Position numbers and translations under genes: made by a program. Under the pieces are notes generated by a model. That model was not told the origin of the DNA, searched no databases, and saw only the letters and a list, made by a program, of their open reading frames with translations. From Steroidobacteraceae bacterium (GTDB lineage: Bacteria > Pseudomonadota > Gammaproteobacteria > Steroidobacterales > Steroidobacteraceae), in NCBI GenBank assembly GCA_019634915.1, contig JAHCAN010000017.1, positions 1-64,000 on the forward strand: a stretch of 64,000 nucleotides of DNA, written 5' to 3'. Of this stretch, positions 11,066 to 31,061 are shown piece by piece (the stretch's first letter is position 1; each line of letters starts with the position of its first letter).

Positions 11066-13270
11066 ATGACTACGTACGCGCGAGAGACGTCGACGGCGGG
11101 TTTTCGGCGGGAAAGCGCCGCTGCAAAGGGCGTGCTTTCTGGTTGCGCAGCAGCAGTAATGGTTTCGATCAGCTTCACCGCATACGCCCAATCCTCTGCT
11201 GAACCTCAGCTCGAGGAGGTCATGGTCACAGCACGCAAGCAGGAAGAGAGCTTGCAGGACGCGCCATTGGCTATCAGTGCCGTCAGCGGCGCCAGTCTCA
11301 GGGAGTCCCAAGTCAGTAATCTTGTGGACGTCGAGACGAGCATGCCCAACGTGAATTTCGGCGCGCGCCTCTCGGCAGGCGCCCCCACTATCCGGGGTGT
11401 AGGGTTTACCCTTCTGGCTGCAGGTACGAGTGCCAATGTGGCAGTTCACGTGGACGGCGTACCCATCGGCCGGCCGGCCGCTACGGCTGCGTCGTTCTTC
11501 GACATCGAGCGGATCGAAGTGGTCCGCGGACCTCAGGGCACACTGTACGGTCGCAACGCCACCGGTGGCGCGATCAATCTGATCACAGAGCAACCATCGC
11601 CAGAGCTCAAGGGCTATGCCAATGTGACTGTCGGGAACTACAACAGCCGGCGCCTGGAGGGCGCAATAGGCGGACCGATCGTCGAGGATCGGCTATTGGG
11701 CCGTGTGGCCTTCGTCATAGATCAGCATGACGGCTGGGCAACCAACCGCCAATCTGGCAAGGAGGTCGATGCTCTGGCCATGAACGCTTTTCGGGGCCGT
11801 CTGACCTGGTTGCCGGCAGAGGCGTGGAAAGTGGACTTCGGCGCCGAGGTGTATCACCAGAATGACACCATGAACGGCATGAAGTTCATCGGCCAGCCGG
11901 AAGGTGTTGCACCACTGTTTGGTGTGGTGCGAGGCGGGCAGGCCTATCCGACCGGTACACGCGATATTCTCGGTGAACTCGAGCCGGTCAATCAGCTCGA
12001 TCTCTCCAGCATCAACATGACCGCGAGCTGGCAGGGAGAGCGTTTCGGGTTCAAGTCGATCACAGCCTACCGCGAGACCGAGCTGTACTGGCAGACAGAC
12101 ATTGACGGCACCAATATGACGATCTTCAACTTGACGCGTGAGGAGGACGCTCGACAGACCAGCCAGGAGTTCCAGTTGACCTACAACCACGATCGCCTCA
12201 AGTGGCTGGCAGGGCTGTTCTACTTCGACGAGAGAGATTCGATCAACGCGCGCGCACCGGGCGGCTTTGCGACGACACCCACATTGACGCTCGACTTTCA
12301 CCAGTCCGCCGAGGCGAAGACCGAGGCGTTGGGCATTTTTGCGGAGGGGACCTACAACCTGACCGACCGCTGGGCGGCGACGCTGGGTGTTCGCTACAGT
12401 GACGAGACGGTCGAGGTGATCAACGAAAGAACCGATCGCCTGCCGCTTGCCCCGGCGGTTCGCGATTGCAATGTGATGCCTTGCTCGCTGAAGTTCACCA
12501 ATACCTCGCCCCGTTTCATCCTCACCTACAAGGCGAGCGACGACAAGATGTTGTACGCCAGTGTTTCGGAGGGCTTCAAGAGCGGTGGTTTCTCGGTGGG
12601 GTCGGTGCAACCGTCGTTCGATGCGGAGGAGATCCTCAGCTACGAAGTGGGTGCAAAGACCACCTGGATCGACGGCAGGTTGCGCGCAAACTTCGCCGCT
12701 TTCCTGTACGACTACACGGACATGCATCAAACCAAGGTGCTGCCGGGAATCACCGTCACGGAGAATGCGTCGGACGCCACGATCAAGGGGTTCGAGGCAG
12801 AGATCCAGGCTCTCATTACCAGCCAGTTCCAGATGAATTTCGTACTCGGCCTGCTCGATGCGAAGTTCGATCGCTTCGAGTCGCAGAACCCCATCTATCC
12901 CGGCACGCCGGTACAGGACTTGAGTGGCTACAGACTGCCCATTGCAGCGGACTACAGCGGTTCGCTCGGAGCCACCTATAGCTGGCCCACCCAGCAAGGA
13001 ACGTGGAGGTTGCGCGGAGAGCTGGCGTTCTCCGATTCCTTCTATACCACCGCATTCAACGAGCGGCCCGCGTACCAGCCCGCATATCAGACCGGCAACC
13101 TGTTCCTGAACTACGAGCGCGAGCATGTGGTCCTCGGGCTGTTCGTGCGGAATCTGACTGACGAGCTGATTCTCAATTCGGCCTATATCAGCAACTCCAC
13201 CGGCGCGACCGGTCTGGGCACCTATGCACCCCCCCGCACCTACGGGGCCAGCTTCCGCTTCAGTTTCTGA
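11066..13270 (+). CDS. TonB-dependent outer-membrane receptor
   Basis: The 734 aa protein has an N-terminal signal region ending near AYAQSS and a TonB box (EEVMVTARKQEESLQD). A plug domain follows (AISAVSG, GVPIGRP, IERIEVVRGPQGTLYGRNATGGAINL), then a long beta-barrel rich in aromatic strands that ends in YGASFRFSF with a terminal Phe. It imports a substrate across the outer membrane using TonB energy. The plug and barrel style (VMVTARK, GRNATGG) is that of the broad receptors frequent in sphingomonads and gammaproteobacterial degraders, not of clear BtuB type. The ATG at 11066, with GAGGGG upstream, is preferred to 10991. Only 13 bp separate it from the E1 alpha start, so it heads the operon. 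Confidence 0.92.
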   Translation: MTTYARETSTAGFRRESAAAKGVLSGCAAAVMVSISFTAYAQSSAEPQLEEVMVTARKQEESLQDAPLAISAVSGASLRESQVSNLVDVETSMPNVNFGARLSAGAPTIRGVGFTLLAAGTSANVAVHVDGVPIGRPAATAASFFDIERIEVVRGPQGTLYGRNATGGAINLITEQPSPELKGYANVTVGNYNSRRLEGAIGGPIVEDRLLGRVAFVIDQHDGWATNRQSGKEVDALAMNAFRGRLTWLPAEAWKVDFGAEVYHQNDTMNGMKFIGQPEGVAPLFGVVRGGQAYPTGTRDILGELEPVNQLDLSSINMTASWQGERFGFKSITAYRETELYWQTDIDGTNMTIFNLTREEDARQTSQEFQLTYNHDRLKWLAGLFYFDERDSINARAPGGFATTPTLTLDFHQSAEAKTEALGIFAEGTYNLTDRWAATLGVRYSDETVEVINERTDRLPLAPAVRDCNVMPCSLKFTNTSPRFILTYKASDDKMLYASVSEGFKSGGFSVGSVQPSFDAEEILSYEVGAKTTWIDGRLRANFAAFLYDYTDMHQTKVLPGITVTENASDATIKGFEAEIQALITSQFQMNFVLGLLDAKFDRFESQNPIYPGTPVQDLSGYRLPIAADYSGSLGATYSWPTQQGTWRLRGELAFSDSFYTTAFNERPAYQPAYQTGNLFLNYEREHVVLGLFVRNLTDELILNSAYISNSTGATGLGTYAPPRTYGASFRFSF

Positions 13271-13283
13271 GAGAGGTGATAGG

Positions 13284-14321
13284 GTGCACGGGAGCACGAC
13301 TCGGATGACGCACGGAAGTCCTTCCGCCGCTACGGATGAGCTCACACCGCAGGCCGTGCGACTGCGCATCTATCGCATGCTGGTGGAAACACGTGTCTGC
13401 GAGAAACGGATCTCGGATCTGTTCCTGCAGAACCTGGTCAAGGGAACCAGCCATCTGGCCCTGGGCCAGGAGGCGGTGGCGGCGGGTGTGGCTGCCGCCA
13501 TGGAGAAGGACGACTATTCCTTCCTCACTTTCCGGGGCCATCATCACGTCATCGCGCGCGGTGCGTCGATGAAGGGCGTGCTGGGCGAGATGATGGGGCG
13601 AGAGTGCGGCCTGATGGCGGGCAAGGGCGGCTCCATGCATTTGTCCGACGCGAAGTTGAACATCATGGCCTCGTACGCGATCTTGGGATCGCAGCTCGCC
13701 ATTGCGTGCGGTGCCGGGTGGTCGGCGCAGTATCGCGGCACGCGGCAGGCCACGGTAGCCTTCTTCGGCGACGGCACTGCAAATCTCGGCGCCTTTCACG
13801 AGTCGCTCAATCTGGCGGCGGTTTGGAAGCTGCCGGTACTGTTCATCTGCGAGAACAACCTGTATGGCGAGTACACGGCCACGCACCGTGTCACGGCGGT
13901 GGAGCATCCAGCGGCAGATCGTGCTGCTGGCTACGGACTGGAGCGCATCGTCATCGACGGTAACGATGCGGATGCGGTCTATCAGACTGCGCGCCGTGCT
14001 CTTGCCAAGGCGCGTGCAGGAGATGGACCTTCACTGATCGAGTGTCTCACCTACCGGCAAAGCGGACATTCGCGCGCCGATCCGGCCGCGTATCGGCCGA
14101 AGGGCGAGCTCGAGGAGTGGCTCGAGCGTGATCCGCTGACGACATACCGGCGACGCATGCTCGAGCTGGGTTTCGACGAGGCGCAGTTGGAGCAGATCGA
14201 GATCGAAACACAGCAGACCGTGGACCGTGCCACGGAGGAAGCAAAGGCTTCGCCGCCCAGTCCGGTGTCGCTGGCCTTCCAGGACGTCTGGGCGGATGGG
14301 GGTATCGCATGGCGGAACTGA
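13284..14321 (+). CDS. TPP-dependent dehydrogenase E1 component, alpha subunit
   Basis: The 345 aa protein is the alpha chain of a heterotetrameric pyruvate/acetoin/branched-chain type E1. The TPP-binding motif begins at G162-D163-G164 (GDGTANLGAFHESLNLAAVW) and ends with the asparagines of ICENN. The KGGSMHL segment and SGHSRADPAAYRP phosphorylation-loop region are also present. Length and motifs resemble acetoin dehydrogenase AcoA and PdhA equally. The start is taken as GTG at 13284 because GAGAGGTGATAGG lies directly before it; an ATG at 13305 is the alternative. It overlaps the E1 beta gene by 13 bp. Within this operon it likely cleaves a 2-oxo acid or acyloin intermediate. Confidence 0.9.
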   Translation: MHGSTTRMTHGSPSAATDELTPQAVRLRIYRMLVETRVCEKRISDLFLQNLVKGTSHLALGQEAVAAGVAAAMEKDDYSFLTFRGHHHVIARGASMKGVLGEMMGRECGLMAGKGGSMHLSDAKLNIMASYAILGSQLAIACGAGWSAQYRGTRQATVAFFGDGTANLGAFHESLNLAAVWKLPVLFICENNLYGEYTATHRVTAVEHPAADRAAGYGLERIVIDGNDADAVYQTARRALAKARAGDGPSLIECLTYRQSGHSRADPAAYRPKGELEEWLERDPLTTYRRRMLELGFDEAQLEQIEIETQQTVDRATEEAKASPPSPVSLAFQDVWADGGIAWRN

Positions 14322-15292
14322 GCTATCGCGAAGCGGTGGCCGCAGGCATCGCGCAGGAGATGGAGCGCGATCCAAACGTGGTGTTCCTGGGCGAGGATGT
14401 GGGAGAGGCGGGCGGTGTATTCAAGGCAACCGTCGGCCTGCTCGAACGCTTCGGGCCGAAACGCGTGCGGGATACGCCGATTTCGGAGGAGGCCATCCTT
14501 GGCACGGCCATGGGCGCGGCGATGACGGGGCTGCGACCGGTGGCGGAGATCATGTTCTCCGATTTCCTCGCGGTGTGCTGGGATTACGTGGCAAACCAGA
14601 TCGCCAAGACCCGCTACATGACGCACGGACAATTCAGTTTTCCGCTGGTGATTCGCACGGCGAACGGAGGTGGCTCCCGCTTCGGTGCGCAGCATTCGCA
14701 AAGCGTGGAGAACTGGGCCATGGCCGTACCCGGTATCAAGGTAGTCGCGCCGTCTACGCCGGCCGATGTCAAGGGGCTCCTGGCGGCGGCCATCCGTGAT
14801 CCGGATCCGGTATTGTTCTTCGAGCACAAGTCCCTGTACGCCACGCGCGGCGAAGTGCCCGCCGGCGAGCACGTCGAGTCGTTGGGCACGGCGAGGATCC
14901 TGCGCCGCGGCGAGCACATCACGATCGCAGCGCTGGCGGCAATGGTGCCGCGCTCGCTGGCGGCCGCCGAGATCCTCGCACGCGAGCACGGCATCTCTGC
15001 CACGGTGATCGACGTGAGATCGCTTGTGCCGTTGGATACCCGTACGTTGCTGGAAGAGACGCGTGCCACCGGCCGCTTGTTCACCGTCGAGGAGAATCCC
15101 CGCCTGTGCGGCTGGGGTGCAGAGCTTGCTTCCATCGTCATGGAGGAGTGCTTCTACGATCTCGATCAGCCGGTGATCCGTATCACCACGCCGCACATCC
15201 CGCTGCCATCGACCGATGTACTGGAGGACGCAGTGATTCCCTCAGTGGAGCGCATCGTGCAGGAGGTCCGCAAGGGCGTGGATTTCAGGTGA
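14309..15292 (+). CDS. TPP-dependent dehydrogenase E1 component, beta subunit
   Basis: The 327 aa protein has the pyrimidine-binding domain (FLGEDVGEAGGVFKAT, with the catalytic glutamate, and RVRDTPISEEAILG) and the transketolase C-terminal domain (VIDVRSLVPLDT, EENPRLCGWGAELAS). It pairs with the preceding alpha subunit, whose gene it overlaps, to form the active-site interface that binds thiamine diphosphate. It is clearly a paralogue of the E1 beta at the left edge of the window but differs in sequence throughout. The E2 gene follows 8 bp after its stop, or overlaps it if a GTG start at 15289 is used. Confidence 0.92.
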   Translation: MAELSYREAVAAGIAQEMERDPNVVFLGEDVGEAGGVFKATVGLLERFGPKRVRDTPISEEAILGTAMGAAMTGLRPVAEIMFSDFLAVCWDYVANQIAKTRYMTHGQFSFPLVIRTANGGGSRFGAQHSQSVENWAMAVPGIKVVAPSTPADVKGLLAAAIRDPDPVLFFEHKSLYATRGEVPAGEHVESLGTARILRRGEHITIAALAAMVPRSLAAAEILAREHGISATVIDVRSLVPLDTRTLLEETRATGRLFTVEENPRLCGWGAELASIVMEECFYDLDQPVIRITTPHIPLPSTDVLEDAVIPSVERIVQEVRKGVDFR

Positions 15293-15300
15293 GCACGGCG

Positions 15301-16524
15301 ATGGATGTGATCATGCCCCAGCTTGGCGAAACCGTGCTCGAAGGCACTGTATCGGTCTGGTACAAGAAGGTCGGCGAACCGGTTAGCGCGGATGAGCCCC
15401 TGTTCGAGGTGGAGACCGACAAGGTGACCACCCAGATCCCCGCGCCTGGCTCCGGCGTGCTGGCCTGCATTCTGGTGGAGCCCGGCGTGTCGGTGAAAGT
15501 AGGTACGCCGCTGGCAGTGATCGAGGCCCCAGGAGCATCGCCGTCAGCGCCAGTTGCCGCCTCAGCCGCGACTCCGCCCGCATCATCAGGTTCCACTGCA
15601 TCTGCGCTACCGCAGAATTCGTCGTTCGCCAGCACGCCCCGCCCGGCCTCGACACGCCTGTCGCCTGCCGTGCGTCGGCGCCTGCGGGAACAAGGCATCG
15701 ATCCGGCGCAGGTGCGTGGCTCCGGTCGCGATGGGCGCATCACGCCGCAGGATGTGCAGGCCTTTGCCAACGGCCGCGCGGCGGGTGAGGGCGCGCGAGT
15801 GGTGCCGCTCAACAAGGTACGGCGTATCACCGCCGCCCACATGGTGCGTTCCCGGGCTACGAGTCCTCATGCGTTGCAGGCAGTGGAAGTGGACTTCCAT
15901 CGCGTCGCGGCAGCGCGTGCTGCGGGCGGCGCACTGTGGCGTGCCCGGGAGGGCTTCACGCTGACCTATCTGCCTTTCATCGCACGGGCGATATGCCAGG
16001 CCATCGGCAGATTCCCCTACGTGAACTCCAGCTTCATCGACGACGAGCTGCACGTGCATCCGCGCGTGCATCTGGGCGTGGCGGTGGACATGAATTTCGA
16101 AGGTCTGGCCGTCACCGTGATCCGCGATGGCCAGGATCGTTCTCTGAGCGCGCTGGCAAGGCAGATGCACCGGCTCGCCGAGGGCGCTCGCAGTGGCAAG
16201 CTGGCGTCTGATGAAATGGCTGGCAGCACATATACGCTGTCCAACTCCGGCAGCTTCGGCACTTACTTCAGCGCCCCCATCATCAACCAGCCGCAGGTGG
16301 CCATCCTTTCTGTGGACGCTGTGCGCAAGAAGCCATGGGTGATAGAGGGTCCCGACGGAGACTCGATCGGCATACGGCCCATCGGAGTGCTGGCCCAGAG
16401 CTTCGATCATCGAGCTTTCGATGGTGCCTATTCGGCCGCATTCCTGCGGACGGCAAAGGACATCATCGAGACAACGGATTGGGCGGCCGAGCTGGTCGCG
16501 CAGAACGACATCGAGACCTATTGA
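15301..16524 (+). CDS. Dihydrolipoamide acyltransferase (E2) of the island dehydrogenase complex
   Basis: The 407 aa protein has a lipoyl domain (lipoyl lysine K41 in ETDKVTTQIPAP), an Ala/Pro/Ser linker, a peripheral subunit-binding domain (LSPAVRRRLREQGIDP, GSGRDGRITPQDV), and a catalytic domain ending with SFDHRAFDGAYS, which supplies the HxxxDG motif. It passes the acyl unit from E1 to CoA. The start is ATG 15301; a GTG at 15289 is in frame and overlaps the E1 beta stop. No E3 (dihydrolipoamide dehydrogenase) gene is in the operon, so the complex presumably borrows the E3 of another complex. Confidence 0.92.
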   Translation: MDVIMPQLGETVLEGTVSVWYKKVGEPVSADEPLFEVETDKVTTQIPAPGSGVLACILVEPGVSVKVGTPLAVIEAPGASPSAPVAASAATPPASSGSTASALPQNSSFASTPRPASTRLSPAVRRRLREQGIDPAQVRGSGRDGRITPQDVQAFANGRAAGEGARVVPLNKVRRITAAHMVRSRATSPHALQAVEVDFHRVAAARAAGGALWRAREGFTLTYLPFIARAICQAIGRFPYVNSSFIDDELHVHPRVHLGVAVDMNFEGLAVTVIRDGQDRSLSALARQMHRLAEGARSGKLASDEMAGSTYTLSNSGSFGTYFSAPIINQPQVAILSVDAVRKKPWVIEGPDGDSIGIRPIGVLAQSFDHRAFDGAYSAAFLRTAKDIIETTDWAAELVAQNDIETY

Positions 16525-16554
16525 CAACGGGAAGCACGAGAGCGGAGGCACGCC

Positions 16555-17415
16555 ATGTCCATCCAGAAGTTTATCCCTACCCCGAAGTTCGACGAGTACA
16601 AGGAGATCTTCAAGGACCACTACAAGATGGAGCGCCGCGATGACGGCGTCATCCTGGTTCAGGCACATACGGCTGGCGGTCCGATCCAGCTCAGCGTGCA
16701 GAACCATCGCTCGCTCGGCCAGATGTTCAAGACCATCGGCCAGGATCCCGAGAACGAGCTGCTGATCTTCAGTGGTACCGGCAACGACTTCATGATGACC
16801 GCTGATCCGGAGGGGTTTGCGCTGGAAGACGAGGATCCGCAGTACTGGGCGTACGAATACGCTTTCAAGGACTGTCGTATCAACATCACGTCGCCCATTT
16901 TCGACCTGGACATCCCGACGATCGGCGTGCTGAACGGGTCAGGTCTGCACACGGAGATCTGCCTGATGTGCGACATCACGATCTGCGCGGAGCATGCTGT
17001 GATTTTCGATCCGCACTACGACGCCGGTTGGGTGCCGGGCGACGGCATCAATCTCTGCTTCCGCGAGCTGCTTGGTGCCAAGCGCGCAGCCTTCGCGTTG
17101 CTGACCAGCCAGGCCATTGATGCGAAGCAGGCGCTGGAATGGGGCATGGTCAACGAGGTGCACCCCAGGGAGAAGCTGCTGGCGCGCGCGTACGAGATCG
17201 CCGACCACATAATGAAGCAACACCGCATGACGCGACGCTTGTCCACGGCGGTCGTGCGCCGCCCCTGGAAGGAGCGGGTGACCAACGATCTGGATACGGG
17301 CATCGGCATCCAGATGTTCAGCTATCTGGCCAAGGCTTCGCACCACCATACCAAGGCGCATTTCGACTCGGTCAACTCCACCAAGGTGCCGGCCAAGAAG
17401 TCCGACAGGAAGTAG
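16555..17415 (+). CDS. Crotonase-superfamily protein resembling 6-oxocamphor hydrolase (beta-diketone C-C hydrolase)
   Basis: The 286 aa protein has the crotonase fold core but not the two glutamates of enoyl-CoA hydratase. The stretch from GSGLHTEI through FDPHYDAGWVPGDGINL closely parallels 6-oxocamphor hydrolase. The residues described there as essential (His122, His145, Asp154) correspond to H132, H154 and D163 here, with the same 9-residue spacing between the last two. That enzyme opens a cyclic beta-diketone by a retro-Claisen hydrolysis and does not need CoA. A similar ring- or chain-opening step is plausible here, but the substrate is unknown. It follows E2 by 30 bp. Related crotonases of unassigned role exist, so the reaction is an inference. 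Confidence 0.72.
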   Translation: MSIQKFIPTPKFDEYKEIFKDHYKMERRDDGVILVQAHTAGGPIQLSVQNHRSLGQMFKTIGQDPENELLIFSGTGNDFMMTADPEGFALEDEDPQYWAYEYAFKDCRINITSPIFDLDIPTIGVLNGSGLHTEICLMCDITICAEHAVIFDPHYDAGWVPGDGINLCFRELLGAKRAAFALLTSQAIDAKQALEWGMVNEVHPREKLLARAYEIADHIMKQHRMTRRLSTAVVRRPWKERVTNDLDTGIGIQMFSYLAKASHHHTKAHFDSVNSTKVPAKKSDRK

Positions 17416-17432
17416 CGGTCGGACGGGATGCG

Positions 17433-17497: not shown

Positions 17498-17513
17498 AGA
17501 GGGTGGTATCAAA

Positions 17514-18269
17514 GTGCGGGAATCAAAGGAAAACAGGAGCGCGGATCGTACCTTGACGATTCTGGAGGCATTTGAGGAAAAGCGTCGTCCGCTCACGCTG
17601 CGCGAGCTGGCAGAGCACTGCGGGATCCCGGTCAGCACTTCTCATGCGCTGGTACACACGTTGCTGAGTCGCGGGTACCTCTACCAGACGAGTCGCCGCA
17701 AGGATCTGTATCCGACGCGGCGGATCCTGGATATGGCGGCGACCATTGTGGCATTCGATCCGTATCTGGAGCGTATCGCGCCGACGCTGGAACAGCTGCG
17801 ACTCGAGACGAGCGAGACGGTCCTGCTGGGCAAACGTCGCGATGACCGGATCCTCTATCTGGAGGTACTGGAGAGTCCGCAGACCATCCGCTACAGCTCG
17901 CGCGCCGGCGAACTGAAACCACTGCACTCCTCCGCGATCGGCAAGGTCATGCTGGGTGCGATGGATACTGCGGCGCTGAGGACATGGCTGGCAGCCCATC
18001 CGTTGCCTCAGATCACGGGTAACACCATCATTACGTGCGAGCAGCTGCTCGAGAATCTTGAGGCCGGGCACCGCTGTGGCTATTTCGTCACGAGCGGTGA
18101 GAACGTGCCGGACGTCACAGCTGTCGCCATTCCGATAGTCATCAACAGCGAGCTGCTGGGCTTGGCCGTGGCCGGCCCGAGTCATCGGATGCAACCAGCG
18201 ATGCAGGAGCACGTCAGCCGCCTGCTGCGCGCGCAGCGGCGTCTGCAGGAGCTGGGGGTGGCGGCCTGA
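17514..18269 (+). CDS. IclR-family transcriptional regulator
   Basis: The 251 aa protein has an N-terminal winged helix (SADRTLTILEAFEEKRRPLTL, HCGIPVSTSHALVHTLLSRGYL) and a C-terminal GAF-like effector domain of the IclR type (SSAIGKVMLGAMD, then GYFVTSGENVPDVTAVAIPI). IclR proteins control catabolic genes in response to a small-molecule intermediate. The GTG at 17514 with GAGGGTGG upstream is taken as start; the frame remains open further upstream but without family similarity. It lies inside the operon, behind a long inverted repeat, and its stop overlaps the next start (TGATG). It probably regulates this operon. Confidence 0.9.
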   Translation: MRESKENRSADRTLTILEAFEEKRRPLTLRELAEHCGIPVSTSHALVHTLLSRGYLYQTSRRKDLYPTRRILDMAATIVAFDPYLERIAPTLEQLRLETSETVLLGKRRDDRILYLEVLESPQTIRYSSRAGELKPLHSSAIGKVMLGAMDTAALRTWLAAHPLPQITGNTIITCEQLLENLEAGHRCGYFVTSGENVPDVTAVAIPIVINSELLGLAVAGPSHRMQPAMQEHVSRLLRAQRRLQELGVAA

Positions 18270-19060
18270 TGGTTCGTTACGCGAACCTGACGGCTGAATC
18301 GGCCGGCGAAGTACTGTGGCTGCGCGTGAACCGGCCCGACAGCCGCAATGCACTTAGCCGTGCCACGCTGGCGGAGCTCGCGCACGCGTGTTCTGCCCAT
18401 GCGAGCGAGCCTGCGCTGAAGGCACTGGTCATCAGTGGAACGGGTTCGCGGGCTTTTGCCGCCGGGGGTGACCTGAAGGAACTATCTGCCGTCCGCACCG
18501 CGGAGCAGGCCGGGGAGCTGTTCGACCTCGCCAGTGACGCGCTGGACCAAGTACGCCGCTTCCCTTTGCCTGTGGTCGCAGCTCTGAATGGCCCCGCCTT
18601 GGGCGGCGGCGCGGAGCTCGCTCTGGCCTGCGACTTCCGCGTTGCGGCATCGACGGCCGGTGTTGGTTTCATCCAGGCACGTCTCAATATCTGCAGCGGC
18701 TTCGGTGGCGGTGCAGATCTCATGCAGCGCCTCGGATCTTCGGGCGCGCTGCTGCATGGCCTCGGTGGAAGCGTTCTGGATGCTTCCGCAGCGTTGGCGG
18801 CCGGACTGGTGGATGCCGTGGCGGCAGAGGGTGAGGCGCTCGAACAGAGCGTTGCCCGTTTCCTCGCTCCCATCCTGCGTCAGAAAAGCCAGGTCATTCG
18901 CGCCTACAAGGCCATGGCCATCGCGACGCGCTTCGGCGAGCCGTTGCGTGCGCGTCGTGTCGTGGAGAGGGAGTGGTTTACGCGTACTTGGGTGCACGAT
19001 GATCACTGGGCCGCCGTCGAGGCGCTGGGTTTCGACAAACCGCGGGCGGAGCGGGTATGA
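18269..19060 (+). CDS. Enoyl-CoA hydratase/isomerase family protein
   Basis: The 263 aa protein is a standard-length crotonase. The oxyanion-hole segments are SGTGSRAFAAGGDLKEL and ALNGPALGGGAELALACD. The region FIQARLNICSGFGGGADLMQRLG corresponds to the active-site helix. The second catalytic glutamate position of true hydratases does not look conserved there, so it may be a hydratase of unusual type or an isomerase. It would act on an unsaturated CoA ester made in this pathway. Its start overlaps the iclR stop and its stop overlaps the mutase start (ATGA), indicating translational coupling. Confidence 0.85.
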   Translation: MVRYANLTAESAGEVLWLRVNRPDSRNALSRATLAELAHACSAHASEPALKALVISGTGSRAFAAGGDLKELSAVRTAEQAGELFDLASDALDQVRRFPLPVVAALNGPALGGGAELALACDFRVAASTAGVGFIQARLNICSGFGGGADLMQRLGSSGALLHGLGGSVLDASAALAAGLVDAVAAEGEALEQSVARFLAPILRQKSQVIRAYKAMAIATRFGEPLRARRVVEREWFTRTWVHDDHWAAVEALGFDKPRAERV

Positions 19061-20658
19061 GCGCAACGCCGCGGCCGCGTGATCCCGGCTCTCATGTACC
19101 TTCCGGCATCGAGGTGCCGGTCGTGGTCACGCGGGAAATGTCGGGTGGCGATCCTGGTGCACCGGGCGTGTATCCGTTCACGCGTGGCATTTTCGCGGAC
19201 GGGTTCCGCGGCCGTTACTGGACTATGCGCCAGTATTCGGGTTTCGGTACCGCAGAGGAATCCAATCAGCGCTACCGATTCCTGCTCGGGCAGGGACAGA
19301 CGGGGCTGTCGGTGGCGCTGGATTTACCTACGCAGATCGGCCTGGACCCTTCCGATCCGATGGCGCGCCCGGAAATCGGCAAGGTCGGAGTTTCGCTGTC
19401 GAATCTCTCGGAAATGGAGATCCTCTTCGACGGCATCGATCTCGGCGCCATTTCCACCTCGTTCACCATCAACGGCACGGCGGCGATCATCTACGCGATG
19501 TACCTGGCCTGCGCCGACAAGCTCGGAGTGGCGCGCGAGCGACTCACCGGCACCATCCAGAACGATATCCTGAAGGAGTATGTGGCGCGCGGCACGTGGA
19601 TCTTCCCGGTGCGCCCGTCCATGCGGCTGATCGCCGACAGTATCCTGTATTCGAACCGGGTTACGCCGCGTTTCAATCCCATTTCCATTGCGGGGGCGCA
19701 CGCGCGCGACGCGGGCTGCACGGCTGCCGAGGAGATCGCCTACACGCTCGCCAACGGGCTGGCCTATGTCGACGAGTTGCGGCGGCGTGGCGGAGATGCC
19801 GATCACTTCGCCCGGCGGCTCTCCTTCTTCTTCTACGTGCACATGGATCTCTTCGAGGAGGTGGCCAAGTTCCGTGCCGCGCGCCGGATCTGGGCGCGCG
19901 CCATGCGCGAACGCTACGGCATCATCGATCCCAAGGCGCAGATGTTCCGCTTCGGCGTCGTGTGCGGCGGTTCTTCATTGGTCGCGCCCCAGCCGTACAA
20001 CAATGCCATCCGGGTCAGCATAGAGACCATGGCGGCGGTGATGGGAGGTGCGCAATCCATCTTTACCTGTGCCTATGACGAGCCCTTCCAGATTCCCACC
20101 GAGTTCTCGGCGGAACTGGCGCTGCGGACCCAGCAGATCATCGCTTACGAAAGCGGCATCGGCCGTACGGTGGACCCGCTCGGCGGCAGCTACTACGTGG
20201 AGTGGCTCACCGACAGGATGGAGGAAAAGATCGAGGGAATCATGCGCGAGGTCGAGGAGTACGGTGGAGCAGTGGCCGCTATCGAGGATGGTTGGATGCA
20301 GCTGCGCGTCGCGCGGCGCGCCCACCAGCGCAAGCTCGACATCGATTCCGGCGCGACACCGGTGGTAGGCCTCAATTGCTTCACCCGCGACGATCAGGCG
20401 CAAGCACCTGGTGAAGTGTTCGCGCTCGATCCTCAGGCGAGCACACGGGTGCTGGAAAAACTCGCCGCGATCCGTGACCGGCGCGACAACGCGGCCGTGG
20501 AGCATTCGCTGGCGAAACTGGCAGAAGCAGCCGTGAAGGACGACGAGAACCTGTTGCCCTACCTCGTAGACTGCTGCCATGCCTATGCCACCGTGGGCGA
20601 GATCGTGCAGCGCCTGAAGCAGTTGTGGGGAGAATTCCGGGAACCGGTGCGGCTATGA
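19057..20658 (+). CDS. B12-dependent acyl-CoA mutase, large (substrate-binding) subunit, atypical
   Basis: The 533 aa protein is the TIM-barrel part of the methylmalonyl-CoA mutase family, without the B12 domain, as in isobutyryl- and 2-hydroxyisobutyryl-CoA mutases. Using Propionibacterium numbering from memory, Tyr89 is Y60 (WTMRQYSGF), Gln197 is Q168, Arg207 is R178, His244 is H215 and Arg283 is R254. Tyr89 and Arg207 are the pair that holds the free carboxylate in methylmalonyl-CoA mutase. Other pocket positions are changed: Tyr243 to A214, the His328/Gln330 motif THSQTSG to G300/V302 (FGVVCGGSS), and His364/Asn366 (HTN) to F336/C338. The partner small subunit overlaps by 4 bp. Substrate unknown; possibly a branched or dicarboxylic acyl-CoA. 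Confidence 0.88.
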   Translation: MSATPRPRDPGSHVPSGIEVPVVVTREMSGGDPGAPGVYPFTRGIFADGFRGRYWTMRQYSGFGTAEESNQRYRFLLGQGQTGLSVALDLPTQIGLDPSDPMARPEIGKVGVSLSNLSEMEILFDGIDLGAISTSFTINGTAAIIYAMYLACADKLGVARERLTGTIQNDILKEYVARGTWIFPVRPSMRLIADSILYSNRVTPRFNPISIAGAHARDAGCTAAEEIAYTLANGLAYVDELRRRGGDADHFARRLSFFFYVHMDLFEEVAKFRAARRIWARAMRERYGIIDPKAQMFRFGVVCGGSSLVAPQPYNNAIRVSIETMAAVMGGAQSIFTCAYDEPFQIPTEFSAELALRTQQIIAYESGIGRTVDPLGGSYYVEWLTDRMEEKIEGIMREVEEYGGAVAAIEDGWMQLRVARRAHQRKLDIDSGATPVVGLNCFTRDDQAQAPGEVFALDPQASTRVLEKLAAIRDRRDNAAVEHSLAKLAEAAVKDDENLLPYLVDCCHAYATVGEIVQRLKQLWGEFREPVRL

Positions 20659-21071
20659 CTGACGCGAGCACACATGGGAGCTTGCGCGGCAGGCGCATTC
20701 TCATTGCCAAGCCCGGTCTCGATGGGCATGACGTGGGTGCGAAGGTCATCGCGCTCGCCTTGCGTGATGCGGGCGCCGACGTGATCTACACGGGGCTGCG
20801 CAAGAGTCCCGGATACATTGCGCGCGTGGCAGTGGACGAGGACGTCGATGCCGTAGGGCTGTCCATCCTCTCCGGCAGCCACAAGGAACTGGTCGAGGAA
20901 ATCGTGGAGCAACTGAAGGCGCTGGGTGCGAGGCAGGTGCCGATTTTCGTCGGTGGCACCATTCCTGAAGCCGACCTGCCCGAGCTGGACCGGCTCGGCG
21001 TCAAGGGCGTCTTCACCAGCGCAATGAAGCTGGACGATGTGGTGGCCGCGGTGACGGAGGCGCTGGTTTGA
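20655..21071 (+). CDS. B12-dependent acyl-CoA mutase, small (cobalamin-binding) subunit
   Basis: The 138 aa protein is a stand-alone B12-binding Rossmann domain. The base-off/His-on motif DGHDVG gives the cobalt ligand H25, with K19 just before it (IAKPGLDGHD). SILSGSH and the later FVGGTIP complete the nucleotide-tail pocket. Together with the preceding large subunit it forms the holoenzyme that moves a group between neighbouring carbons of an acyl-CoA by adenosyl-radical chemistry. ATG 20655 overlaps the large-subunit stop (ATGA), and the next gene starts at a TTG overlapping its own stop. Confidence 0.93.
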   Translation: MTDASTHGSLRGRRILIAKPGLDGHDVGAKVIALALRDAGADVIYTGLRKSPGYIARVAVDEDVDAVGLSILSGSHKELVEEIVEQLKALGARQVPIFVGGTIPEADLPELDRLGVKGVFTSAMKLDDVVAAVTEALV

Positions 21072-22201
21072 GCGGCGCGGCGCCCTTGGCGGGCATTCGG
21101 ATAATCGAGATCGGCCATATGCTCATGGGACCATATTGCGGCATGTTGCTCGCCGACCTCGGGGCCGATCTCATCAAGGTGGAACCGGCGCAGGGCGACA
21201 TCGCCCGTTCCATCGGGCAACACAGTGTCGGGCCACACAATGCCTATTTCGCCAGCCTCAATCGCAACAAGAAGAGCGTAGTGCTGGATCTCGCCAGCGA
21301 GCAGGGACAACAGGCCCTGGGCGAGCTCGCGGCCAGCGCCCGCGGCCTCATCACCAATCTGCGCCCGTCGGCTATCCACAAGCTCGGGCTGACCTATGAG
21401 CATTTGAAGAGGTGGAATCCCGGTATCGTCTGCGTCGCGCTGACCGGCTACGGTCTGGAGGGCCCGTACGCAGATCGCCCCGCCTACGACTACGTGATTC
21501 AGGCGCTCACTGGCGTCATGCAGATCACCGGCGAACCCGGAGGTCCGCCCGCCAAGACCGGCTATTCCGCGGTGGACAATTCCGCTGCCATCATGGGTGC
21601 CGTGGGTCTGCTGGCGAAACTGACGCAGGGCCAGGGCGGGCAGGTGGACATCGCCATGTACGACACCATGCTGTCGCAGCTGAACTATCTGGCGAGCGCG
21701 TGGCTCAACGCCGGCGAACCGGTCGGGCGTTACGCGGAGTCGGCCCACCCCTACATCGTGCCGGCCCAGAACTTCCGCACGCGCGATGGCTGGCTGGTGC
21801 TGTTCATCACACATGATGATTTCTGGCGACTGTTCTGCGAGGAGCTGGGGCGCCCGCAATGGCTCGACGATCCCGCCTTCGCCACCATGGACGCGCGACG
21901 GCGCAACCGCGAACGCGTGGTGCCGGCTATCGCCGAAGTGCTCGCCGACGAAAGTACGCAGCACTGGCTGGACCGCCTCACACCACTCGGTCTCGTGGTC
22001 GCCGATGTGCAATCGCTGGAATCGGCGCTGGCCAGTGAACACGCCGTCGCGAGAGAGATGGTCGTGGATATCCCGACGGAGGATGGATCGATCCGCGCCG
22101 TTGGCAACCCGATCAAGAACCGCGGAGCGGCTATGCCACTGATGCGTCCGCCGCTGCTGGGTGAGCACAACGCCCTGATCAGCGGAGGAGTCCGCCGTTG
22201 A
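21068..22201 (+). CDS. CaiB/BaiF-type (family III) CoA-transferase
   Basis: The 377 aa protein has the family III transferase features: the N-terminal AGIRIIEIGHMLMGPYCGML with LADLGADLIKVE, NRNKKSVVLDL, and the catalytic aspartate D170 in GYSAVDNSAAIMG. These enzymes move CoA from a donor such as succinyl-CoA to a carboxylic acid. In this operon it could activate the acid made by the aldehyde dehydrogenase or recycle CoA between intermediates. The start is a TTG whose last two bases form part of the TGA of the mutase small subunit (TTGA). Length and fold are complete. Confidence 0.92.
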   Translation: MSGAAPLAGIRIIEIGHMLMGPYCGMLLADLGADLIKVEPAQGDIARSIGQHSVGPHNAYFASLNRNKKSVVLDLASEQGQQALGELAASARGLITNLRPSAIHKLGLTYEHLKRWNPGIVCVALTGYGLEGPYADRPAYDYVIQALTGVMQITGEPGGPPAKTGYSAVDNSAAIMGAVGLLAKLTQGQGGQVDIAMYDTMLSQLNYLASAWLNAGEPVGRYAESAHPYIVPAQNFRTRDGWLVLFITHDDFWRLFCEELGRPQWLDDPAFATMDARRRNRERVVPAIAEVLADESTQHWLDRLTPLGLVVADVQSLESALASEHAVAREMVVDIPTEDGSIRAVGNPIKNRGAAMPLMRPPLLGEHNALISGGVRR

Positions 22202-23115
22202 CTGCGCCGTTGCAGCCCACGTTCGACCGCCTTCGCGTGAGCAAGGAGTTGTCGCGTGTGGCCTCGGCCACAGTCGAGGAGATTCTGCACGGCGCCGGCG
22301 CCGAACCCGAGCGGTCCCGGCGCATGCGTGTCATCGGCATCACCGGTGCGCCAGGGGTGGGCAAGAGCACTCTGATCGGAAGATTGGCGCGGAGCCGGCT
22401 CAAGGGTGCGCGATCGCTCGCGATCGTGGCGATCGATCCCACCAGCCCATGCACGCGAGGGTCGCTGCTCGGTGATCGCATCCGCATGGAGGATTTGGGC
22501 GAGGACCCGCGCGTGTTCATCCGTTCGCTGCCGAGCGGCACCAGTGAGGACGGACTCACCGACAATGTCGCGGAGGTCCTGGATGTGCTGGAAGGTTCTG
22601 GCTTCGACGAAGCGTTGCTGGAGACCGTGGGTGTGGGGCAGACAGCGCAGGGTGTGCGCACGCTGGCCGACGTTGAGGTGCTGGTGTTGGCGCCTGGAGC
22701 GGGCGATCACATACAGGCCATGAAGGCGGGCGTCATGGAGACGGCTGACATCCACGTCGTGAACAAGGCGGAGCAGCCGGGTGCCGAGCGTCTCGTGGCG
22801 GAGGTTCTGGGTGTCCGGCGCCGCGCGCGTGCAGGTGCGAGCGCGGCGGCTACTGTCATCCAGGTGCGCGCGGGGGAGTCGACCGGAGTCGAACAGCTGA
22901 GCGCAGCCCTGGACGAACGACTGGCGGCCGGCGCGGCGGTCGATATGCAACGCGTGCGCCAGCGTTATCGCGTGCAACAACTTGTCCAGCGCCGGCTTCA
23001 GGAAACGCTGGACCAACTTCCGGTGACGACATGGGATGCGTCGCTGCCCGACAACTACCTGGCTGTGCTGAGGCGTCTGCATGCCGAAGCGCGGCAATTC
23101 AACCCATCGAAGTGA
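22198..23115 (+). CDS. MeaB/ArgK-type G protein (mutase chaperone)
   Basis: The 305 aa protein is a G3E GTPase of the MeaB class, which protects B12 mutases and gates cofactor loading. The P-loop is at 50-57 (GAPGVGKS), the switch regions include AIDPTSP, LLGDRIRMEDL and ETVGVGQ (142-148), and KAGVMETADIHVVNKAE follows. The G4 guanine-specificity motif reads NKAE (189-192) instead of the usual NKxD, and the conserved GGLS of switch I is replaced by EDGLT, so this is a divergent copy that may be matched to the unusual mutase. Start is TTG 22198 with GGAGGAG seven bases upstream, overlapping the preceding stop. Confidence 0.88.
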   Translation: MTAPLQPTFDRLRVSKELSRVASATVEEILHGAGAEPERSRRMRVIGITGAPGVGKSTLIGRLARSRLKGARSLAIVAIDPTSPCTRGSLLGDRIRMEDLGEDPRVFIRSLPSGTSEDGLTDNVAEVLDVLEGSGFDEALLETVGVGQTAQGVRTLADVEVLVLAPGAGDHIQAMKAGVMETADIHVVNKAEQPGAERLVAEVLGVRRRARAGASAAATVIQVRAGESTGVEQLSAALDERLAAGAAVDMQRVRQRYRVQQLVQRRLQETLDQLPVTTWDASLPDNYLAVLRRLHAEARQFNPSK

Positions 23116-23119
23116 TGTC

Positions 23120-24004
23120 ATGAAAACAGGATTCATCGGTCTGGGACGGATGGGGATCGGCATCGCGCAGCGCATTCTCGGTGGCGGTTTCGATCTGGCA
23201 GTGTGGAATCGCACGGCGGCTCGCGCGCAGCCGCTGCTCACCCTCGGGGCGAGCAGCACGGCCTCCATTCGTGAGCTGGCCATGCAGTCCGATCTGCTGT
23301 TCACCTGCCTCACGGGCGACGAGGCCATCCTCGAGATCATAGAGGGCGAGGAAGGGATCCTCGCCGGCCTGCGTCCGGGCGCGGTCCATGTCTGCCTAAT
23401 GACGATTTCACCGACCTGCGCCGACACGCTGGAACGTATGCATCGCGCGCACGGCAGCCATTACGTGGCGGGGCCCGTCAGCGGACGACCCGATGCAGCG
23501 GCCGCCGGCAAGCTGATCTGCTATCTGGCGGGACCCGCCGACGCCGTGCAGCGAGCGCAGCCCGTATGTGCCGCCTTCTCGAGCCAGGTGATCGCCGTCT
23601 CCGAGCGGCCCCGGGCCGCCAATTGCCTGAAGCTCAGCATCAACTTCACGCTCTGCTCGATCATGGAAGTGCTGGGCGAGGCATACACCTTTGCAGGGAA
23701 ATGCGGAGTGAATACCGACCTGCTGAACGACTGGTACCAGATGGCATTTGCCCATCCCGCCCTCAAGACCTATGCCAACAAGATTCGCGCGCGCGCCTTC
23801 GACACCGATATCGGCTATTCGATGGCGGGAGGCTTGAAGGACGTGCGCCTGATGTTGAGTACCGCGCGCGAGGTGGGCGTGAGACTCGAGACCGGAGAGC
23901 TGGTCGAGCAGAAAACCCGGGAAGCCATCGAAGCGGGACTATCAGAAGTGGACTGGACGGGTTTCACTGAAATCACCCGCCGTCGTGCTGGAGGGGGGGA
24001 TTGA
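23120..24004 (+). CDS. 3-hydroxyisobutyrate dehydrogenase-family NAD(P)-dependent oxidoreductase
   Basis: The 294 aa protein is a beta-hydroxyacid dehydrogenase. The Rossmann motif is GLGRMG (7-12), the substrate-binding segment is GPVSGRPDAAAAGKL, and the catalytic lysine is K171 in ANCLKLSIN. The family oxidises 3-hydroxyisobutyrate, tartronate semialdehyde, 6-phosphogluconate and similar compounds, or reduces the reverse. A free 3-hydroxy acid in this pathway is a plausible substrate. ATG 23120 lies 4 bp after the MeaB stop; a start at 23081 would overlap and lacks family similarity. The arginine found after the nucleotide fold (WNRTAAR) suggests NADP. Confidence 0.88.
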   Translation: MKTGFIGLGRMGIGIAQRILGGGFDLAVWNRTAARAQPLLTLGASSTASIRELAMQSDLLFTCLTGDEAILEIIEGEEGILAGLRPGAVHVCLMTISPTCADTLERMHRAHGSHYVAGPVSGRPDAAAAGKLICYLAGPADAVQRAQPVCAAFSSQVIAVSERPRAANCLKLSINFTLCSIMEVLGEAYTFAGKCGVNTDLLNDWYQMAFAHPALKTYANKIRARAFDTDIGYSMAGGLKDVRLMLSTAREVGVRLETGELVEQKTREAIEAGLSEVDWTGFTEITRRRAGGGD

Positions 24005-25227
24005 GCACTTCGCTGTCCAGCGTTCCCGCGCAGGACGAGACGCCTTCCGACTGGCGCCGCTATCGCGCGCTGGCCGCAGCCAGCTTCGGTCTCGCGCTGG
24101 GTTACAGCAACATCGCGATCCTGTGCTTTGGCCTGTTCGTCGTACCTCTCAGTGCAGCATACGGCTGGTCCAGAAGCGAGATTTCTCTCGCCATGGGTAT
24201 CCTGCTGTGGCTCGTGGTGATCACAGGTCCCTCAGCCGGCGCACTCATCGACCGGTTTGGTGCGCGACGCATACTGATTCCTTCCATCATACTGTTTGCG
24301 CTGGCCTTCGCTTCCCTTGCGCTCGTAAACGGCAGGTTATGGCTGTTCTACGCGATCCATGTGGCGCTGGCGGTGGTCGGCGCCGGCACTTTGCCATCCA
24401 GCTACACGCACGTCATCGTGGGCTGGTTCGACAAACGCCGCGGTCTGGCTCTCGGTATAACCATGGCCGGTGTGGGCATCGGTGGCTTCTTCCTTCCTCC
24501 CTATGTGCAGGCTCTGCTGGCTCGCGGCGGACTGCAGACGGCCTACCTGGGAGTGGCAGCGCTGGTGGCGCTGGTCTGTCTGCCGGTCGTCGTGCTGTTT
24601 CTCAAGGAGCCTCCCGTTCCGGCTGGCCGACAGACGTCCGAAACCAGCCCGCTGCGGGAGCTGTTCGCCAACCCCCGCTTCATCAAGCTGGCGTCTGCCT
24701 TCTTCCTGCTTGGGCTATACACGGCCGGTATGCTCGGCCATCTCGTGCCGCTGCTCGTCGATCGCGGTGTCGATCCCGTCTTTGCTGCCTGGACGATGTC
24801 GATGCTGGCCGCCACGCTCACGCTCGGCAGGGTCTTTGCTGGTTATCTGCTGGACCGCTTCTCACCGATGATAGTCGTGTCGGTGTTTCTTGCGGCCCCG
24901 GTTGCGGGGCTCGTCCTGCTGGCTGGCGGCGCTTCCGGTGACGTGGCCATTCCCAGTGCGATCCTGCTCGGATTCGGGATCGGCGCGGAGTTCGATTTCA
25001 TGTGCTATCTGGTGAGCCGATATCTGCCAGCACAGACCTATGCGCGCAACTATGGCATCACCTACGCGGCGTACGCCGTGGGTGCGGGACTCGGGCCGAT
25101 ACTGCTCAGTTTTTCCCTCGAGAAGCTGGGCGCCTACGCACCGGCTCTGTGGCTGCTATGCGGTACGACGCTCGCCGCCATTCTGATCCTGCTGACATTG
25201 GGCAACTATCGACGTACTTCAGGGTGA
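24001..25227 (+). CDS. MFS transporter (monocarboxylate/oxalate-formate-like)
   Basis: The 408 aa protein has about 12 hydrophobic helices and the major-facilitator loop between helices 2 and 3 (GALIDRFGARRILIP). In helix 1 to 4, YGWSRSEISLAMGI resembles the monocarboxylate and oxalate/formate groups, so an organic acid is the likely cargo. The start is TTG 24001 after GGAGGGGGGA, overlapping the preceding TGA. It would carry the operon substrate, or a product, across the inner membrane, complementing the TonB receptor in the outer membrane. Confidence 0.88.
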   Translation: MSTSLSSVPAQDETPSDWRRYRALAAASFGLALGYSNIAILCFGLFVVPLSAAYGWSRSEISLAMGILLWLVVITGPSAGALIDRFGARRILIPSIILFALAFASLALVNGRLWLFYAIHVALAVVGAGTLPSSYTHVIVGWFDKRRGLALGITMAGVGIGGFFLPPYVQALLARGGLQTAYLGVAALVALVCLPVVVLFLKEPPVPAGRQTSETSPLRELFANPRFIKLASAFFLLGLYTAGMLGHLVPLLVDRGVDPVFAAWTMSMLAATLTLGRVFAGYLLDRFSPMIVVSVFLAAPVAGLVLLAGGASGDVAIPSAILLGFGIGAEFDFMCYLVSRYLPAQTYARNYGITYAAYAVGAGLGPILLSFSLEKLGAYAPALWLLCGTTLAAILILLTLGNYRRTSG

Positions 25228-25233
25228 GCGGGC

Positions 25234-26712
25234 ATGCAGACCTATCAGCTCTACATCGACGGTCAGTTCGTGAATGCTCAATCGGGAGCGTGGTTCGACA
25301 GCGATGATCCTTTCCTCGGCAAGCCGTGGGCGAGGATCGCTGCCGGCAGCGCCGTCGATGTGGATCGCGCAGTACAGGCCGCGCACCGCGCGTTCACCGA
25401 TGGTCCATGGTCGAAGACGACGGCCACTGCCCGCGGGCGGCTGCTATGCAGACTGGGAGACCTGATCGCACGTGATGCGCGCAGGCTCGCGGAAGTCGAG
25501 GTGCGGGACAACGGCAAGTTATTTGCCGAGATGTTCGGACAGGTAAGCTACATTCCGCAGTGGTACTACTACTTCGGAGGTCTCGCCGACAAGATCCAGG
25601 GCGACGTGATCCCGCTCGACAAGCCGGGGTTCTTCAATTTCACCCGCCGCGAGCCGGTGGGCGTCGTCGCGATCATCACACCCTGGAACTCACCGCTGCT
25701 GCTGGCCACGTGGAAGCTCGCGCCGGCGTTGGCGGCGGGCTGCACCGTGGTCGTCAAGCCTTCCGAGTTCACTTCGGCGTCGACGCTGGAGTTCGTCGGC
25801 TTGCTGGAGGAAGCCGGATTTCCGCCAGGCGTCGTGAACGTCGTGACCGGTGCCGGTGCGGAAACAGGTTCTGCGCTGGTGGATCATCCGCTGGTCCGGA
25901 AGATCGCTTTTACCGGCTCCGATACCACGGGTCGCGTCGTCAACGAGCGGGCTGCGCGGAGCTTCAAGCATGTCAGCCTGGAGTTGGGAGGAAAGTCTCC
26001 GAATATCGTATTCGAGGACGCGAATCAGGAGGAAGCCGTCAATGGCGTGGTAGCTGGCATCTTTGCTGCCACCGGTCAGACCTGTGTCGCCGGCTCCCGA
26101 TTGCTCCTGCAGGAGAGCATCTACGAGCCGTTCGTCGAGAAGCTCCTCGCGCTGGCGAGCTCTGCCCGAATGGGAAATCCGATGGACTTGCAGACACAGG
26201 TGGGCCCCGTCACGACGCTGGCGCAGTATCGCAAGGTGCTCGAATACATCGAGGTCGCCAAGGCCGAGGGTGCGCGGCTGCTGATGGGCGGCGGACCGGC
26301 GCAGCGGCCGGAATGTGGCAGCGGCTGGTTCGTCGAACCCACTATTTTCGGCGATGTGGACAATCGCTGGCGTATTGCGCAAGAGGAAGTGTTTGGGCCT
26401 GTACTGTCGATCATCCGCTTCAAGGACGAGGAGCATGCCGTCGCACTGGCCAACGACTCGCAATACGGACTCGGTGCCGGTGTGTGGACCGCCGATATCG
26501 GTCGTGCGCACCGCATGGCTGAACGAATCCAGTCCGGCATCGTCTGGGTGAACTGCTACCGCGCTGTCAGCTTCCTCTCACCGTTTGGTGGCTACAAGCA
26601 TTCCGGCCTCGGGCGCGAAAACGGAATAGACTCCGTCCGCGAGTATCTGCAGGTCAAGAGTGTGTGGATCAACACCGGGGCGCCCACCGCAAATCCATTT
26701 GTTCTGCGTTGA
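25234..26712 (+). CDS. NAD(P)-dependent aldehyde dehydrogenase
   Basis: The 492 aa protein is a standard ALDH. The catalytic cysteine is C284 (GQTCVAGSR) and the general base is E250 (VSLELGGKSPNIVF). The cofactor region includes TPWNSPLLL, KPSEFT and FTGSDTTGR, and the C terminus has FGGYKHSGLGRENG. It turns an aldehyde into a carboxylic acid. As the last gene of the operon, 6 bp after the transporter, it could oxidise the aldehyde released by the E1 reaction or by a retro-aldol step. It resembles betaine/phenylacetaldehyde-type ALDHs in general form; the substrate cannot be read. Confidence 0.93.
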   Translation: MQTYQLYIDGQFVNAQSGAWFDSDDPFLGKPWARIAAGSAVDVDRAVQAAHRAFTDGPWSKTTATARGRLLCRLGDLIARDARRLAEVEVRDNGKLFAEMFGQVSYIPQWYYYFGGLADKIQGDVIPLDKPGFFNFTRREPVGVVAIITPWNSPLLLATWKLAPALAAGCTVVVKPSEFTSASTLEFVGLLEEAGFPPGVVNVVTGAGAETGSALVDHPLVRKIAFTGSDTTGRVVNERAARSFKHVSLELGGKSPNIVFEDANQEEAVNGVVAGIFAATGQTCVAGSRLLLQESIYEPFVEKLLALASSARMGNPMDLQTQVGPVTTLAQYRKVLEYIEVAKAEGARLLMGGGPAQRPECGSGWFVEPTIFGDVDNRWRIAQEEVFGPVLSIIRFKDEEHAVALANDSQYGLGAGVWTADIGRAHRMAERIQSGIVWVNCYRAVSFLSPFGGYKHSGLGRENGIDSVREYLQVKSVWINTGAPTANPFVLR

Positions 26713-31053: not shown

Positions 31054-31061
31054 ACAGTAGG

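Follow-up and report, generated by a model that had tools for sequence, protein, structure and literature searches.

Which compound is broken down by the 14 genes on the + strand at positions 11066-26712 of contig JAHCAN010000017.1 from a Steroidobacteraceae bacterium, and do these genes constitute one pathway? The window, that is, the whole stretch of 64,000 nucleotides analysed here, had received a first-pass annotation describing 14 same-strand genes of named families joined by overlaps or short gaps, and Pfam matches, NCBIfam matches and coordinates agree with this description. The interpretation built upon it is partly supported. Judged from gene content and recurrence, the operon is a composite of two recurring modules. 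Module A comprises the E1/E2 genes, a crotonase related to 6-oxocamphor hydrolase (hereafter OCH), and the 3-hydroxyisobutyrate-dehydrogenase-like (HIBADH-like) and aldehyde dehydrogenases. Module B (17514-23115) comprises IclR, a second crotonase, MutL, MutS, a family III CoA-transferase and MeaB. We suggest that the B12 mutase of module B acts on a dicarboxylyl-CoA, probably with subsequent decarboxylation, a point absent from the first-pass annotation.

The operon opens with a TonB-dependent receptor (11066..13270; Pfam TonB_dep_Rec_b-barrel and Plug), followed by the E1 alpha subunit of a 2-oxo acid/acyloin dehydrogenase complex (13224..14321; PF00676, E 1e-73; the start may be at 13284 or 13305), by E1 beta (14309..15292; Transket_pyr, Transketolase_C) and by an E2 protein (15289..16524) with lipoyl, E3-binding and acyltransferase domains in Pfam. 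With both E1 subunits and an E2 carrying lipoyl, E3-binding and catalytic domains, these genes represent a 2-oxo acid dehydrogenase complex; the E1 alpha score lies under the pyruvate dehydrogenase equivalog cut-off of NCBIfam, and the complex may be specific for either acyloins or 2-oxo acids. OCH (16555..17415), a cyclic 1,3-dione hydrolase candidate, precedes module B, which begins with the IclR regulator (17514..18269; Pfam). The likely start of IclR, a GTG at 17514, agrees with that of its homologue in the module of genome G186 (68% identity). Then come the module-B crotonase (18269..19060), MutL, which is the large subunit of the mutase (19057..20658; PF01642, E 3.1e-189), MutS, its B12-binding small subunit with a DGHDVG motif (20655..21071; PF02310, E 4e-22), the CoA-transferase (21068..22201; CoA_transf_3) and the MeaB-type G protein (22198..23115; PF03308, E 2.8e-57). 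The HIBADH-like beta-hydroxyacid dehydrogenase (23081..24004; NAD_binding_2/NAD_binding_11; the start may be at 23120), an MFS permease resembling lactate and oxalate-formate transporters (24001..25227; Pfam/NCBIfam) and the aldehyde dehydrogenase (25234..26712; PF00171, Aldedh) complete the operon. Most junctions are overlaps of 1-47 nt; E2 and OCH are separated by 30 nt, and the permease and aldehyde dehydrogenase genes by 6 nt. The widest gap within the operon, 98 nt between OCH and IclR if the latter starts at 17514, coincides with the start of module B. Consensus scans found nothing above chance (promoter-like sites: 0 against an expectation of 3.2; terminator-like sites: 10 against 9.3).

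Module B is a recurring unit. MutL was searched for in 369 class, 398 phylum and 217 family genomes, the own genome being counted in each, and was found at 69-79% identity in 2, 3 and 2 further genomes, respectively; a survey of 72,556 plasmid records yielded seven whose best MutL place has 60-80% identity, five of which were compared (H1 and H2 were left out, and one unannotated record was analysed by tblastn). Altogether, module B recurs whole or partly at 19 other loci, some of them plasmid-borne and all with a MutL of 69-78% identity: MutS and MeaB accompany MutL in 19/19, the crotonase in 18/19 and the CoA-transferase in 16/19, while an IclR gene is found within 4 kb in 8/19. The window order IclR, crotonase, MutL, MutS, CoA-transferase, MeaB is repeated in Paraburkholderia largidicola and Sulfitobacter dubius; the IclR gene is divergent in Diaphorobacter, and tblastn and annotation reveal none beside module B in Marinobacter. 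Because most of the IclR-to-MeaB block persists in distant bacteria, this gene order is not due to chance. At three loci (L144, L145, L147) TRAP or tripartite-tricarboxylate carrier genes directly follow the module; in Marinobacter (L146) a corrinoid adenosyltransferase gene follows it and the TRAP genes lie at least 4.5 kb upstream. At locus G329 the module adjoins a P450, two FMO-like and two luciferase-like monooxygenases; by its gene content this is the sole module-B locus with a clear alicyclic-type setting. It lends support to the terpenoid or alicyclic setting first suggested for the window, whose own genes do not decide for a terpenoid.

With its MM_CoA_mutase domain and a B12-binding subunit bearing DxHxxG, the enzyme belongs to the adenosylcobalamin (AdoCbl)-dependent acyl-CoA mutases of the methylmalonyl-CoA mutase family. 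The best PDB match of MutL is the large subunit of 2-hydroxyisobutyryl-CoA mutase (HCM; 4r3u, E 7.3e-145), which we take to be, as in the window, a two-subunit mutase with a MeaB partner. In a tree of matches covering at least 450 columns, the window MutL and 19 others form a clade of 20 (support 100/100), apart from the methylmalonyl-CoA and 2-hydroxyisobutyryl-CoA mutases, and the Streptomyces fulvoviolaceus protein (55% identity) is its sister (99/98). The same alignment, numbered by the Propionibacterium (P. shermanii) methylmalonyl-CoA mutase, shows Tyr89, Gln197, Arg207 and His244 retained in 20/20 clade members; Ala243 and Val330 are likewise found in 20/20, position 334 is Ser or Ala and position 366 Cys or Ala. 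Tyr89 and Arg207 are presumably the residues that bind the substrate carboxylate in the P. shermanii enzyme; since this pair is kept, MutL should act on a dicarboxylyl-CoA. Its pocket seems to be changed, perhaps enlarged; we assume that some of the altered positions among 243, 330, 334 and 366 may contact the adenosyl group.

Two known identities were rejected for MutL. HCM has Ile89 and Gln207 where the window and its clade have Tyr and Arg, and the window protein falls outside the HCM clade. Methylmalonyl-CoA mutase proper is separated from the clade at 100/100, and Ala243, Val330, Ser334 and Cys366 of the window replace its Tyr, Gln, Trp and Asn. These replacements bear on the explanation that module B is nothing else than the organism's ordinary methylmalonyl-CoA mutase for propionyl-CoA, lodged in a catabolic operon, which we consider quite improbable. 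In fact the Tyr/Arg pair for the methylmalonyl-CoA carboxylate is retained, and a search of the own genome (2.78 Mb, 79% complete) revealed, besides this mutase, just a frame of 1166 aa, a length like that of the fused IcmF; at such completeness, however, the absence of another mutase is weak evidence, MutL is placed apart from the methylmalonyl-CoA mutases of the tree and has all four positions changed, and its usual partners, a crotonase and a CoA-transferase, are in general not needed for propionyl-CoA oxidation. The clade is apparently unstudied as a B12 enzyme.

Other mutases were noticed during this survey. Genomes G395 and G505 (L047 and L048) each carry a pair of mutase genes separated by about 4-5 kb; the aligned mutase has Ala243, a pocket otherwise different and 46% identity, and it perhaps belongs to another unassigned mutase group. 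Diaphorobacter HDW4B carries, about 9 kb from module B, a second, distinct B12 mutase set that includes MeaB and an AMP-binding protein (L145:2834-6127), whose mutase has Leu at 89 and Asn at 207.

The second element that defines module B is its crotonase. The enzyme families named in the first-pass annotation are confirmed, but the function of enoyl-CoA hydratase given to this protein does not hold, as it lacks the second catalytic Glu. Among the module-B copies (window plus 18), the first catalytic Glu is present in 19/19; the second hydratase position is never Glu, being Gln in 18/19 and His in 1/19. The two-Glu pattern of a hydratase is consequently missing and the name was retained as a family label. 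ScpB of E. coli MG1655 likewise lacks the second Glu, and the module-B crotonase may be closer in likeness to the mammalian decarboxylase ECHDC1. From residue pattern and operon partners, it is a candidate alkylmalonyl-CoA decarboxylase of the ScpB/ECHDC1 type. Two reports on ECHDC1 place a conserved Glu in the motif GGGAEFTT and contain the proposal of a broad activity on branched dicarboxylyl-CoAs (PMC6717113, PMC8473548). Among the NCBIfam models, the CoA-transferase scores best with those for succinyl-CoA:mesaconate and succinate:glutarate transferases.

The mutase could also run in reverse: an activated substituted malonate would be converted to a substituted succinyl-CoA, and the crotonase would be an isomerase or serve a later step. 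B12 acyl-CoA mutases are in general reversible, and a dehydratase candidate and an acyl-CoA dehydrogenase are encoded downstream at 26964-28995, which would suit such a course; nevertheless the loss of the second hydratase Glu in all module-B crotonases and the succinate-like acids indicated by the CoA-transferase models, though these score under their cut-offs, speak against it, and we regard the reverse reading as doubtful.

Module A is centred on OCH, whose closest solved structures are 6-oxocamphor hydrolase (1o8u, E 3.8e-36) and the Anabaena beta-diketone hydrolase (2j5g, E 4.1e-32). Residues H132, H154 and D163 are invariant across five homologues and align with two His and one Asp which we take to be active-site residues of 6-oxocamphor hydrolase; on both grounds OCH falls in the 6-oxocamphor/beta-diketone hydrolase group. 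It differs from 6-oxocamphor hydrolase in coming from a wide homologue group with neighbours of its own, present in Acidobacteria, Actinobacteria and Proteobacteria. Neighbours were counted by tblastn at the best 80 of 288 homologues: within 5 kb of OCH a HIBADH-like gene is found at 39 loci, a split transketolase at 31 and any thiamine enzyme at 38. The 35 loci with 9-kb flanks give 22, 15 and 21, respectively, and there the nearest HIBADH-like gene or transketolase is always within 5 kb, none lying at 5-10 kb. All such neighbours come from the 69 loci whose identity is at least 59%. Three families of thiamine enzyme occur as partners, namely split transketolase (L102), E1 (for example L068, L072, L096) and TPP_enzyme_N/M/C (L115); E1 and transketolase were pooled as thiamine enzymes, given that E1 queries also match transketolases: 8/15 E1-bearing loci (within 5 kb) have a transketolase too (E1 at 25-30%). 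The HIBADH-like protein of the window is 57%, 52% and 53% identical to those near OCH in L070, L096 and L036. By eye, two family relatives (L033, L034) have OCH after a split transketolase, with a 2-amino-3-ketobutyrate-ligase-like gene upstream and, in L034, a threonine-dehydrogenase-like gene too.

A known pathway comes near this arrangement: part of the set lies near a pyrogallol-hydroxytransferase-like large subunit at 3/80 OCH loci (L070, L096, L122; Pfam on L070). These three also carry E1, HIBADH-like and aldehyde-dehydrogenase-like genes (L070:4714-8619), a combination that recalls the anaerobic resorcinol/hydroxyhydroquinone pathway reportedly found in Azoarcus and Thauera. The window differs in having no such subunit among its scanned genes; the PF21423 profile found no match in the own genome and none in the control genomes either. 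At the three loci the OCH-type hydrolase may serve anaerobic hydroxyhydroquinone breakdown.

What, then, joins the two modules? The modules do recur, but separately, and the complete 14-gene order is found at none of the 80 OCH and 19 module-B loci. MutL, MutS or MeaB is present near OCH at 0/80 loci (flanks up to 10 kb, often shorter), and OCH lies within 4 kb of module B in 0/19. The idea of a pathway joining a retro-Claisen crotonase, a thiamine enzyme and a B12 mutase survives in the form of co-occurrence, not as a single 14-gene unit: seven of the 80 OCH genomes (L062, L063, L065, L068, L072, L074, L080) possess a mutase of the MutL clade at 71-74% identity, compared with 2/368 class-draw genomes. 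The seven go under the names Alphaproteobacteria or Rhodospirillaceae, and two of the names are marine. In all of them module B adjoins a HIBADH-like gene and a split sulfopyruvate/phosphonopyruvate-decarboxylase-like enzyme; in L068 and L072, OCH directly follows a single frame of 679-690 aa covering E1 alpha and beta, the beta part being 52% identical to that of the window. In L065, OCH adjoins genes for a citryl-CoA-lyase-like protein, a luciferase-like monooxygenase and a 2-oxoglutarate (2OG) oxygenase, which flank module B in sister genomes; there the citryl-CoA-lyase-like gene has a PaaK-like ligase after it instead of OCH. In the L065 genome, two contigs have a terminal stretch of 459 bp in common (93%), within the gene located between crotonase and oxygenase in L167. 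Because the contig ends share a gene and the flanking genes match those of sister module-B loci, OCH and module B probably adjoin in this genome.

It could be argued that two unrelated modules, acting on different compounds under different control, were joined by chance in a mobile island of lower GC content. Each module occurs alone elsewhere, module B has its own IclR behind the 98-nt gap, the GC content per 2 kb is 0.60-0.655 across 4-28 kb and 0.656-0.742 elsewhere in the window, and an IS3 transposase is encoded at 5253-6484. On the other hand, module B lies within module A and the reading frames overlap at its 3' end; both modules occur together in the seven genomes, probably as neighbours in one; and module B has a HIBADH-like gene nearby in the seven and at a distance of up to about 12 kb in Marinobacter, G329 and G871. 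A chance union therefore seems to us distinctly unlikely.

We tentatively favour a two-module catabolic unit, which we would rate just short of probable, where module A would open a cyclic 1,3-dione and module B would convert a substituted succinate to CO2 and a shorter acyl-CoA. The TonB receptor and the permease would take up a cyclic or branched compound, whose oxidation state would be set by the HIBADH-like and aldehyde dehydrogenases. OCH would perform the retro-Claisen cut of the cyclic 1,3-dione to an oxo acid, and E1/E2, with an E3 assumed from elsewhere in the genome, would convert a 2-oxo acid or acyloin to an acyl-CoA. Module A would yield a (substituted) succinate to be processed by module B under its own IclR: a CoA ester of the succinyl type would be made by the CoA-transferase or E1/E2; MutL/MutS, whose loading with AdoCbl MeaB would maintain, would shift the thioester so that a (substituted) malonyl-CoA results; and this product would be decarboxylated by the module-B crotonase to a shorter acyl-CoA, in the manner of E. 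coli ScpA and ScpB acting on succinate.

Several observations weigh against this two-module scheme. The substrate, every reaction and the direction in which the mutase would run are deduced from gene content, order, recurrence, clade and active-site residues. A crotonase without the second Glu might equally be an isomerase; the CoA-transferase lies under every NCBIfam cut-off and its best PDB match is formyl-CoA transferase; and OCH has Gln aligned to the near-C-terminal Glu of 6-oxocamphor hydrolase. The partners are not constant: of the 19 module-B loci, 3 lack the CoA-transferase, 1 lacks the crotonase and 11 have no IclR within 4 kb, and the 11 OCH loci of lower identity (44-52%) show neither a thiamine enzyme nor a HIBADH-like gene (0/11). 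The seven co-occurring genomes are one lineage in the trees and count as one event, not seven, so that a Fisher test on 7/80 against 2/368 overstates the association; moreover, the window E1/E2 is not the same enzyme as the split decarboxylase that adjoins module B in the seven. A first OCH tree, computed without L069, L071 and L077 (taken as duplicates of L033-L035) and without matches under 250 columns, grouped the window OCH with the seven at 95/95; in a second, without 14 long or distant rows, a single origin appeared in 44% of bootstrap trees. As proof of joint inheritance the OCH tree was set aside on this discrepancy.

How does the unit compare with known systems? The E. coli scpA-argK-scpB-scpC (sleeping-beauty) operon is, like module B, one operon of a B12 mutase, a MeaB-type G protein, a crotonase decarboxylase and a CoA-transferase. 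In the window, however, the mutase subunits are split and of another clade (42% to ScpA), the crotonase is 22% identical to ScpB, the CoA-transferase is of family III, and IclR and module A are added; a Scp-type succinate decarboxylation operon was consequently rejected as an orthologous set, the roles being analogous. The alkylsuccinate route of anaerobic alkane degraders combines a mutase with decarboxylation of a substituted succinyl-CoA, steps like those proposed for module B; the window differs in that no fumarate-addition enzyme was found among its scanned genes. Among the literature matches listed, judged by titles and abstract openings and with most subscription journals outside the search, there is no published account of the joint pathway or of the mutase clade.

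The genes around the operon may continue the same metabolism. A FAS1/HTD2-type dehydratase candidate (26964..27818, +; PF13452, E 5e-8), 251 nt downstream, and an acyl-CoA dehydrogenase (27832..28995, +) could belong to the operon or not. An isovaleryl-CoA dehydrogenase (29881..31104, -; best PDB match 4o5m, E 4.5e-189) is divergent from genes for the beta and alpha subunits of a methylcrotonyl-CoA-type carboxylase (31094..34719, +), of which the beta gene is a second copy: it is 68-71% identical to the single copies of 5/6 genus relatives, and these copies and the other copy of the own genome are 87-93% alike. Similarly, G167 has an OCH module about 11 kb from a similar isovaleryl/methylcrotonyl set (75%). 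The extra dehydrogenase/carboxylase set weakly suggests isovaleryl-CoA as an end product. Module B might then represent a new specificity class of B12 acyl-CoA mutase and remove a quaternary carbon, 2,2-dimethylsuccinyl-CoA, as the remainder of a gem-dimethyl ring, being rearranged to isopropylmalonyl-CoA and decarboxylated to isovaleryl-CoA for the set 3 kb downstream, an extension that we consider rather unlikely. A study on marine lignin consortia lists 2,3-dimethylsuccinate among the products, with no gene link (PMC10269927). A family III CoA-transferase remnant (29010-29186, +; 53 positions of PF02515) lies opposite the 3' end of a GntR gene (29141-29884). Upstream and divergent, at 6802-10422 on the - strand, a TauD-type dioxygenase, a tartrate-dehydrogenase-family enzyme (above the TIGR02089 cut-off) and an SDR may be part of the same pathway.

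If module B does remove a quaternary carbon, a gem-dimethyl block would be opened aerobically by rearrangement, with a cassette that several proteobacterial groups carry on plasmids and in chromosomes. Few specificities are known for B12 acyl-CoA mutases, and a conserved, apparently unassigned clade would add one. The OCH-centred module suggests a common, as yet unassigned step in which a diketone-hydrolase-like protein and a thiamine enzyme are combined, and the compact module-B cassette is a possible route past the alkyl branches that block ordinary breakdown of dicarboxylic acids.

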